Assembly (NCBI GenBank): GCA_009926865.1
Contig: RFOD01000019.1
Coordinates: 1 to 43,019, forward strand
DNA length: 43,019 nt
DNA from: Gammaproteobacteria bacterium
Lineage (GTDB): Bacteria; Pseudomonadota; Gammaproteobacteria; Steroidobacterales; Steroidobacteraceae
Direction: 5' to 3'
Each line of letters begins with the position of its first letter. Position 1 is the first letter of the stretch. Position numbers and translations under genes: made by a program. This document shows, in pieces, positions 25,968 through 28,541 of this stretch. Under the pieces are notes generated by a model. The model did not search any database, was not told where the DNA came from, and saw only the letters and a list, made by a program, of their open reading frames with translations.

Positions 25968-26613
25968 ATTCGAACGCGTATTCAAAAGATATCCGAACGG
26001 CCGTGAGGCCTTGCATGATGTCTCATTGCAGATCGAAGCCGGTGAGTTTGTATTTTTGACCGGACGATCAGGCGCGGGCAAAAGCTCGTTACTCAAATTG
26101 ATCGCGTTACTGGAGCGCCCTACGCGAGGACAACTCATCGTCAATGGACAAGATACGGGCCGTTTGCCGCGTCGAGCCATTCCCGCGTATCGCCGTCGAC
26201 TGGGGATTGTCTTTCAAGACCATCAATTATTGATGGACCGCCCCATTTACGACAATGTCGCGCTGCCTTTGGTCGTCTCGGATACGCGCTTTCGCGATAT
26301 CGACAAACGCGTACGAGCCGCCTTAGATCAAGTGGGCCTCCTTGGGCGCGAACGAGTCTTGCCGGCAGAACTCTCCATCGGTGAACAGCAGCGCGTCGGT
26401 ATCGCCCGCGCGGTCGTTGCGAAACCGACGGTACTCATCGCGGATGAGCCAACGGGCAACCTCGATCATGCACTCGCTCGCGATGTCATGAATCTATTTC
26501 AAAGATTTCAAGAGGTGGGGGTCACTGTCGTGATTGCCACACACGATCTAGCGCTGGTGCAGGAACTCGGACATCGAGAAGTGCATATTGATGACGGTAG
26601 GGTGATTGTATGA
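25960..26613 (+). CDS. ftsE: Cell division ATP-binding protein FtsE
   Basis: ATPase (217 aa) of the FtsEX complex, which activates peptidoglycan hydrolases at the septum. Walker A is [13 protein letters not shown] (about 36-48), Walker B is [12 protein letters not shown] and the H-loop is IATHD. The ABC signature reads [14 protein letters not shown], with Ile where LSGGE is usual in FtsE. The ATG at 25960 removes an unrelated N-terminal extension and fits the normal length. It overlaps ftsY by 8 bp and ftsX by 4 bp. Confidence 0.96.
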
Positions 26614-27536
26614 TTTCCCCTATCACGTATTTGATGCGACATGTACTCGCCTTTTTGGGCGCCTTAGGCCGACTCATGCGTCGACCGCTGGGCACGCTAT
26701 TGACCACCTTCGTGATCGCACTGGCGCTCGCCCTCCCCACTGGCCTCTGGCTACTCGTCAAAAATGCACGGATCGCAACGGGTGGCCTTGCCGAGACCGT
26801 CGAGCTCGCGGTCTACCTGCGAACCGATGTGTCGCTGCCATCGGCTGAAGCCCTCGCTGAGCGCACCCGCAAGCGCGCCGGGGTGGAATCGGTGATTTTG
26901 GTCAGCGCGGATGATGCACTCAAAGAATTTCGCGAATATGCAGGGTTCGGCGATGCGATCGATGCACTCGGTCGTAATCCGCTGCCGCACCTACTGCGAG
27001 TGCGTCCTGCACTCGAAGAAGCGGATCCCGTGAGTGTGGCGGCGCTGCAGCGCGATCTCAGCGCCTGGCCCGAGGTCGAGTCCATCCGCTATGACAGCGC
27101 GTGGTTACAGCGGCTAGAGGCGCTATTCGCGGTACTGCAAGCGCTCTTTCAGGCCCTCGCGGTGGTGTTTTCGCTCGGTGTACTCGCCGTGATCGGCAAT
27201 GCCGTCCGACTGGAAATCGCGAGTCGCCGGGCGGAAATCGAAGTCACCAAACTGGTCGGTGGCAGTGATGCCTTCATCAGGCGGCCATTCCTCTATAGCG
27301 GCCTGCTGTATGGCGTCGTAGGTGGGGTACTGGCGATGTTGATGCTGAGCGCACTCGGTTGGGTACTCGAGGGACCTGTGGCAGCGCTCTCGCTCGAGTA
27401 TGGCAGTCGCTACAACTTAGCGGGGTTACACCCGGAAGAGGCCGGTCTGCTGTTGATCGCAAGCGGCGCGCTGGGGCTGATTGGCGCCTGGGTGGGGGCC
27501 GCTCGGCAGCTCAAGGCCATCGATCCTCAGCCCTGA
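26610..27536 (+). CDS. ftsX: Cell division protein FtsX
   Basis: Inner-membrane partner of FtsE (308 aa). Topology is typical: a cytoplasmic N-terminus, one span (about residues 28-49), a periplasmic domain (about 50-175) that contacts hydrolase activators, then three spans near 180-205, 230-258 and 275-298. The segment RLEIASRRAEIEVTKLVGGSDAFIR after the second span is the expected coupling region. Its ATG overlaps the ftsE stop. Confidence 0.95.
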   Translation: MISPITYLMRHVLAFLGALGRLMRRPLGTLLTTFVIALALALPTGLWLLVKNARIATGGLAETVELAVYLRTDVSLPSAEALAERTRKRAGVESVILVSADDALKEFREYAGFGDAIDALGRNPLPHLLRVRPALEEADPVSVAALQRDLSAWPEVESIRYDSAWLQRLEALFAVLQALFQALAVVFSLGVLAVIGNAVRLEIASRRAEIEVTKLVGGSDAFIRRPFLYSGLLYGVVGGVLAMLMLSALGWVLEGPVAALSLEYGSRYNLAGLHPEEAGLLLIASGALGLIGAWVGAARQLKAIDPQP

Positions 27537-27607
27537 TCGGGCATCTCCGACCCCGCGGGCGGCCGAGGGGGACGCTGGCCGAGCGGGGCTGCGGGGAACT
27601 GAGGGGC

Positions 27608-27634
27608 TTAGCACTCGGTCTATTGGAGTGCTAA
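27608..27634 (+). promoter_or_regulatory. CIRCE operator (HrcA binding site) upstream of rpoH
   Basis: Inverted repeat TTAGCACTC (27608-27616), a 9-bp spacer, and GAGTGCTAA (27626-27634). This is an exact match to the CIRCE consensus TTAGCACTC-N9-GAGTGCTAA, the binding site of the heat-shock repressor HrcA. It ends 25 bp before the rpoH ATG. A weak promoter can be read through it, with TTAGCA (27608-27613) and TAAACT (27632-27637) at 18-bp spacing, so HrcA would cover the promoter. Confidence 0.9.
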
Positions 27635-27659
27635 ACTCGGGCCTGGAGGTATTTCAGTC

Positions 27660-28541
27660 ATGACCACCCACGCACTGGCAACCCGCGATGTTGATCTCGC
27701 GCTGAGCGGCCCGCTCGGGAGTCTCGACGCCTATCTCGAACGTATTTCGAAGGTGCCGGTGCTGTCGCGCGAGCAAGAACTGAGCCTCGCCCAGCGTCTG
27801 CGCGATGAGCAAGACGTCGACGCCGCCCGCACACTCGTGTTGTCGCATCTGAGATTCGTCGTGCATATCGCGCGCGGCTATCGGGGCTATGGCTTGCCGA
27901 TGGGCGATATCGTGCAAGAGGGTAACGTGGGCTTGATGAAAGCCGTCAAACGCTTTGACCCCGAGCTCGGTGTACGGCTGGTGTCCTTCGCGGTGCACTG
28001 GATCCGCGCTGAAATTCACGAATACGTGTTGCGCAACTGGCGCTTGGTCAAAGTCGCGACCACCAAGGCGCAACGTAAGCTGTTTTTTAATCTTCGTCGG
28101 ATGAAGAAAAATTTGTCGTGGCTGTCGGCGGATGAGACCGCAGAAGTCGCTCGTGAACTCGGCGTGTCCACCGCTGAGGTGACGGAGATGGAGCGTCGCT
28201 TGTCCGCACGCGACCTATCTTTTGATCCGTTATCGGCGGAGGGCGACGAAGACGAGAGCTACGCGCCGACGCAGTATCTGCCAGCGCCTGATGCGGACCC
28301 CGCGACCCACGTGGAAGAACACGAATGGGAAGAAAACACGCAGGTGTTACTACGCCTGGCCATTGAAGAGCTCGATCCGCGTAGTCGGGATATTGTGCAG
28401 AGCCGATGGATGGCCGGTGATGGCGATAAAGCGACGCTACACGATCTGGCCGATAAGTATGGCGTCTCAGCGGAGCGTGTCCGACAGCTCGAAGCAAACG
28501 CGATCAAAAAATTGCGTGGCTTGATGCTCGAGCACGCCTAA
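27660..28541 (+). CDS. rpoH: RNA polymerase heat-shock sigma factor RpoH (sigma-32)
   Basis: Sigma factor (293 aa) that directs RNA polymerase to heat-shock genes. Region 2 contains [14 protein letters not shown] and the [13 protein letters not shown] segment. The RpoH box QRKLFFNLR (138-146) separates sigma-32 from RpoD and RpoS. The region 4 helix-turn-helix is in [21 protein letters not shown] lies 10 bp before the ATG. The ftsYEX-rpoH order is conserved in gammaproteobacteria. The short intergenic region carries a perfect CIRCE site, so repression by HrcA is likely in addition to any translational or proteolytic control. Confidence 0.97.

Follow-up and report, generated by a model that had tools for sequence, protein, structure and literature searches.

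The window, by which we mean the whole stretch of 43,019 bases analysed here, carries on its plus strand rpoH, which encodes sigma32, the sigma factor of the heat-shock response (27660..28541, 293 aa; TIGR02392, 399.2 bits, cut-off 323.1), with ftsX as its upstream neighbour on the same strand (26610..27536; TIGR00439, 308.5 bits, cut-off 255). The closest named matches of the RpoH protein were records titled Gammaproteobacteria bacterium (L006, 62.5% identity). Between the two genes, at 27608..27634 of the plus strand, lies TTAGCACTCGGTCTATTGGAGTGCTAA, a perfect inverted repeat with the form of CIRCE, the predicted operator of HrcA, which is kept before rpoH in the order and the class. Its arms TTAGCACTC and GAGTGCTAA have no mismatch and are separated by nine bases (N9). 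A stretch of 71 bp separates the repeat from ftsX, and a gap of 25 bp (27635-27659) separates it from the rpoH ATG at 27660; a Shine-Dalgarno-like GGAGG can be read at 27645..27649 (plus strand), 10 nt 5' of that ATG. A perfect CIRCE 25 bp ahead of rpoH is what the sequence-only reading had described, and when arms and spacer were reread the description proved exact, with 0 mismatches. This was the single match with three or fewer mismatches in the window; none of 100 dinucleotide shuffles contained one, so that no match is expected by chance and a chance origin of the site was rejected.

HrcA and the other heat-shock genes of the window's genome

The same reading had proposed a search of the genome for hrcA and for further CIRCE sites. 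The gene hrcA was found at G000:C1:202439-203104 (PF01628, 218.3 bits, cut-off 22.2), which removes its absence as an objection, and ORFs that read by eye as grpE, dnaK and dnaJ follow it. A scan of the whole genome (2.32 Mb in 103 contigs, 96.87% complete) at three or fewer mismatches returned two CIRCE-like sites, the one before rpoH with 0 mismatches and one at C33:700-726 with 2, located 52 bp 5' of a groES ORF. Because the control, the CIRCE pattern read backwards, also gave one match in the whole genome, the groES site rests on its position more than on its score. The scan gave no CIRCE-like site at this threshold near hrcA, and autoregulation of hrcA in this genome was rejected, since the only such sites are those at rpoH and groES.

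The chaperone genes also present sequences resembling sigma32 promoters. The groESL operon combines its CIRCE with a sigma32-type promoter match, and grpE and dnaK are preceded by CTTGAAT-N13/14-CCCCAC (score 11) with no CIRCE at three or fewer mismatches; shuffles of the long grpE/dnaK upstream region score 10-12, and these matches therefore rest on position. No sigma32 promoter scoring at least 9/13 was found before rpoH in 27251-27700. The genome also encodes RpoE (TIGR02939, 279.5 bits, cut-off 236.15).

Conservation of CIRCE before rpoH in the order and the class

From the order of the window we sampled 147 genomes, of which 142 had rpoH, 131 had hrcA and 126 had both, leaving 16 with rpoH and no detected hrcA. 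In all 142 genomes with rpoH, the sequence preceding the RpoH domain was read over as much as 400 nt (less in G003, where fewer bases were available) for CIRCE arms with at most two mismatches in total and a spacer of 8-10. These counts omit five genomes without an rpoH match and the second rpoH copies of G136, G071 and G144 (partial); the copies in G136 and G071 have no CIRCE, with best matches of 6 and 8 mismatches. CIRCE arms were present in 126 of 126 genomes with hrcA versus 7 of 16 without detected hrcA (Fisher value 2.3e-10, a guide only, as relatives are not independent), and the backwards control never fell under 5 mismatches in the 142 sequences. The nine order genomes without CIRCE arms are all nine sampled members of one genus (family f12, 66-95% complete). 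The seven that have CIRCE before rpoH without detected hrcA are 73-100% complete and count against the HrcA reading; other members of their families have hrcA, and it is possible that these are missed genes or recent losses of hrcA. Completeness is 92-100% in G003, G013, G019 and G162, genomes of the order or class in which hrcA was undetected and CIRCE was kept before rpoH.

Conservation is concentrated in the operator itself. Pairwise identity was 1.00 and 0.95 in the two arms, compared with 0.26 at spacer positions 4-9 and 0.27-0.28 in the flanks, and from these alignments the arms are invariant or nearly so while those spacer positions and the flanks are free. The N9 spacer alone accounts for 124 of the 126 order genomes with hrcA. 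The remaining two, G105 (N8) and G052 (N10), have perfect arms, and their spacers could be natural spacing variants or sequence errors; HrcA may not accept them. Upstream of rpoH in G156 (stretch in L330) there are two tandem CIRCE-like repeats, each followed by AAT to give TGCTAAAAT. Third CIRCE-like sites with 1-3 mismatches were seen at G030:C46:7142, G016:C14:27574, G063:C27:3866, G042:C299:712 and G007:C107:3867, each lying about 370-400 bp upstream of the match to the HrcA domain, so that some of the order's families seem to have hrcA itself as a predicted HrcA target.

A wider sample of the class comprised 85 genomes from 84 families, with rpoH in 76, hrcA in 56, both in 52 and rpoH only in 24; nine genomes without an rpoH match and the second rpoH copy of G177, which has no CIRCE, are omitted from the counts, and the counted G177 copy had less than 400 bases of readable upstream sequence. 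With CIRCE arms accepted at three or fewer mismatches, the site precedes rpoH in 48/52 genomes with hrcA versus 4/24 without it (Fisher 7.8e-11), and the backwards control reached a minimum of 4 mismatches, in one sequence. Four genomes with hrcA lack the site (G217, G171, G159 and G182) and so count against the HrcA reading; G182 retains the right arm with TGCTAAAAT. The four that have the site and no detected hrcA likewise count against it; among them two are 62% and 81% complete, G162 is 97% complete with one mismatch, and G220 is 99% complete with three mismatches and looks decayed. A decayed CIRCE-like remnant with its right side shortened and TGCTAAAAT retained was observed in G222, a class genome in which hrcA was not detected.

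Among named sequences, at least 112 stretches showed the CIRCE and rpoH pattern; 101 passed the RpoH test, L072 reads as RpoH by eye, and in 10 rpoH was not present or not visible. The figure of 112 is a lower bound: stretches with more than 88 nt between CIRCE and the LD[AS]Y codons fell outside the search pattern, and in the window that distance is 91. The named genomes include Methylococcales, Thiobacillus, Accumulibacter and K189A-clade records, and hrcA was found in 49 of 50 checked out of the 101, the one miss being the genome of L011. One of those with both hrcA and a perfect CIRCE ahead of rpoH is Methylotuvimicrobium buryatense 5G (L105). A perfect CIRCE was also seen in L019 (a Ruminococcus MAG, minus strand, 5143), about 17 bp before an ORF resembling htpG by eye. 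Within the class, sampled members that bear hrcA usually have CIRCE before rpoH. The possibility that the repeat would not be conserved in relatives, raised together with the original description, did not hold in either the order or the class.

Promoter-like elements overlapping the operator

Alignment of 131 order promoters identified three conserved features outside the arms: GGAACT 16 bp upstream, a TAA that opens the spacer, and an AAT that follows the right arm. The first two form GGAACT(T)-N16-TC|TAA, which we take to fit the sigmaE consensus; in most order genomes the two final bases of the left CIRCE arm are also the first two of the -10 of this type. A test pattern (GGAACTT and a TCTNA-like element separated by 15 to 17, before rpoH) scored at least 9/12 in 110/131 order genomes versus 25/131 sequences with flanks and spacer shuffled once, and 89/131 had the pair at one exact register. 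The pair is not universal, being rare in f13 (1/10 at 9 or more) and f9 (0/2). A good -35 of this type stands at the usual place in 33/52 class sites and is faint in 99 named loci. On the other side of the operator, the right arm running downstream forms TGCTAAAAT, a match to an extended -10. CIRCE is followed by the letters N-A/C-T in 131/133 order sites and 49/52 class sites, and of the 99 named loci, 98% have the final T of the extended -10.

All these elements have counterparts in the window, on the plus strand. A sigmaE-type -35-like GGAACTG (27595..27601, 6/7 consensus letters) is followed after N17 by a -10-like TCTAT inside the CIRCE spacer (27619..27623, 4/5 letters). This candidate pair scores 10/12, a value also attained by 5/131 shuffled order sequences; it is weak in this genome and shifted by 3-4 bp from the usual order register, with the -35 moved 3 bp toward CIRCE. 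The start of the left arm reads by eye as a putative sigma70-type -35, TTAGCA (27608..27613), spaced by N18 from the extended -10-like TGCTAAACT (27629..27637), which is made of the right arm and the next three bases and would serve as the promoter's -10. At the level of letters, CIRCE on rpoH is overlapping conserved promoter-like elements. The sequence-only reading was right about the site itself; it missed this overlap and the fact that the arrangement is usual across the class.

The groES copies of CIRCE offered a comparison. Among the matches listed we chose 20 CIRCE loci outside rpoH, 19 of which lie upstream of a groES start. In none of these 19 does the spacer open with TAA, GGAAC stand upstream or AAT follow the repeat; instead, CIRCE sits after a TAT(T/G)AT-like or sigma32-type -10. 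A sigma32-type promoter scoring 10-12/13 is found at a fixed place before CIRCE in 13/19 and in the window's genome, while five other loci score 7-8, no better than the shuffles (6-9 across the set), and the best match of the remaining one lies at another place. Within the same order, the operator letters of groES and rpoH are the same, but CIRCE follows the promoter-like elements at groES and covers them at rpoH.

No hrcA and no CIRCE before rpoH were found in the nine genomes of the genus lacking the operator (G012, G026, G038, G050, G060, G068, G075, G086, G092). All nine have CTTGAAA-N13/14-CCCCA before rpoH, with a score of 12-13 of 13, whereas a score of 12 or more occurs in 0/133 other order genomes (11 in four), and TGNTAAAAT is retained at one place in 9/9. 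As judged from these promoters, it looks like HrcA repression was replaced by sigma32 autoregulation, and as the nine belong to one genus this is one event. In the class sample, genomes without hrcA have no sigma32 promoter like that of this genus, the best scoring 10.

Perhaps the repeat persists chiefly for its role in the promoter, as an extended -10 and a sigmaE -10, with HrcA control being minor. The right-arm letters do belong to the conserved TGCTAAAAT, and TGNTAAAAT persists where CIRCE is lost. However, promoter use explains neither the invariant left arm nor the perfect symmetry, the arms were lost in the hrcA-less genus although the -10 stays, and they are absent from most class-sample genomes without hrcA, so that we regard this explanation as improbable. 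Less probable still, and by some distance, is that the repeat works at the RNA level, forming a hairpin or thermometer in the leader of the rpoH mRNA. The arms pair as RNA in the predicted fold, but the folds are no more stable than those of shuffled sequences (z 0.16 and 0.64) and 27400-28200 has no Rfam match; on these two grounds a thermometer or hairpin around the rpoH start was rejected, although the coding region may contain a thermometer of another kind. In addition, the predicted start from the extended -10 lies after CIRCE, which would leave most of the repeat untranscribed. Finally, a chance match or a functionless remnant in this genome has the slimmest prospect of all: the sigmaE-type part of the window's site is weak and shifted, but both arms are perfect where no match is expected, the genome has hrcA, and relatives carry CIRCE at the same place.

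Proposed regulation of rpoH by HrcA and its possible evolution

We consider it highly probable that these 27 bp are an HrcA operator placed over the rpoH core promoter, and that rpoH and groESL are both under HrcA repression, forming a feed-forward cascade. Repression of rpoH by HrcA, with groESL as second direct target, is very likely judging from the sequences compared here; the control of rpoH by HrcA proposed earlier is supported, as predicted binding, by the presence of hrcA and by the conserved repeat in relatives. GroEL keeps HrcA active, as known from Bacillus. Under low stress, HrcA made active by free GroEL would bind the rpoH CIRCE and exclude sigma70 RNA polymerase and, in most order genomes, probably sigmaE polymerase as well. 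Misfolded protein would then occupy GroEL and release HrcA, raising groESL directly and rpoH at the same time, and sigma32 from the raised rpoH would increase groESL, grpE and dnaK. Such a circuit would be a coherent feed-forward cascade with chaperone feedback.

The closest precedent is Geobacter sulfurreducens, for which Table 8 of a 2004 paper (PMC545781) predicts CIRCE before rpoH at -51. The statement in the sequence-only reading that rpoH is listed in predicted HrcA regulons is therefore correct for at least this species. As here, a perfect CIRCE before rpoH is accompanied by groESL as the other constant target. In the portion seen, the other Geobacter and Desulfuromonas entries of the table are without a CIRCE at rpoH, which is near-universal in our sampled relatives with hrcA, and hrcA-grpE-dnaK also has CIRCE there, unlike hrcA of the window's genome (at three or fewer mismatches). 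The overlap of the operator with promoter-like elements also sets the window's rpoH apart from the Geobacter sulfurreducens case as presented there. According to a review on Xylella (PMC11764788), nitrogen starvation raises hrcA more than 4-fold and rpoH 2-fold, an outcome at odds with simple repression should the Xylella rpoH carry CIRCE. Our literature search, with subscription papers mostly outside it, found no report of the breadth of rpoH CIRCE in this class or of its overlap with the promoter. The work of Permina and Gelfand on HrcA regulons of beta- and gamma-proteobacteria may already include rpoH.

In E. coli, whose control genome has no HrcA match, the rpoH upstream region contains no CIRCE (best 7 mismatches) and reads TGAACTT-N16-TCTGA. 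This sigmaE-type promoter, which we take to be P3, is established as in use, and its layout and spacing are the same as in the usual rpoH promoter of the order. The earlier remark that enterics control sigma32 by mRNA structure and proteolysis thus leaves out this promoter, as matched by sequence.

On balance we lean slightly toward HrcA-repressed rpoH being ancestral to the class, with CIRCE combined with a dual sigmaE/sigma70 promoter. A single element of about 50 bp would then have sensed both envelope stress and free GroEL. In lineages from which HrcA disappeared, including that of E. coli, the operator would have been lost while the sigmaE or extended -10 part stayed, and HrcA control would have given way to sigma32 autoregulation in one genus or more. 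Since the same wiring is present in most sampled relatives that bear HrcA, the circuit of the textbooks, that of E. coli, may have arisen later by simplification.

In the usual account, sigma32 as a positive regulator and HrcA/CIRCE as a negative one act in parallel; here they apparently act in series, through an element that most of the HrcA-bearing families sampled in the class possess. How the heat-shock network evolved becomes testable, as repressor-led first and sigma32-led after loss of HrcA, and in the genus without hrcA the replacement promoter can be read directly. We would predict that many environmental bacteria, including methanotrophs, control rpoH at the level of transcription as well as through translation and stability.
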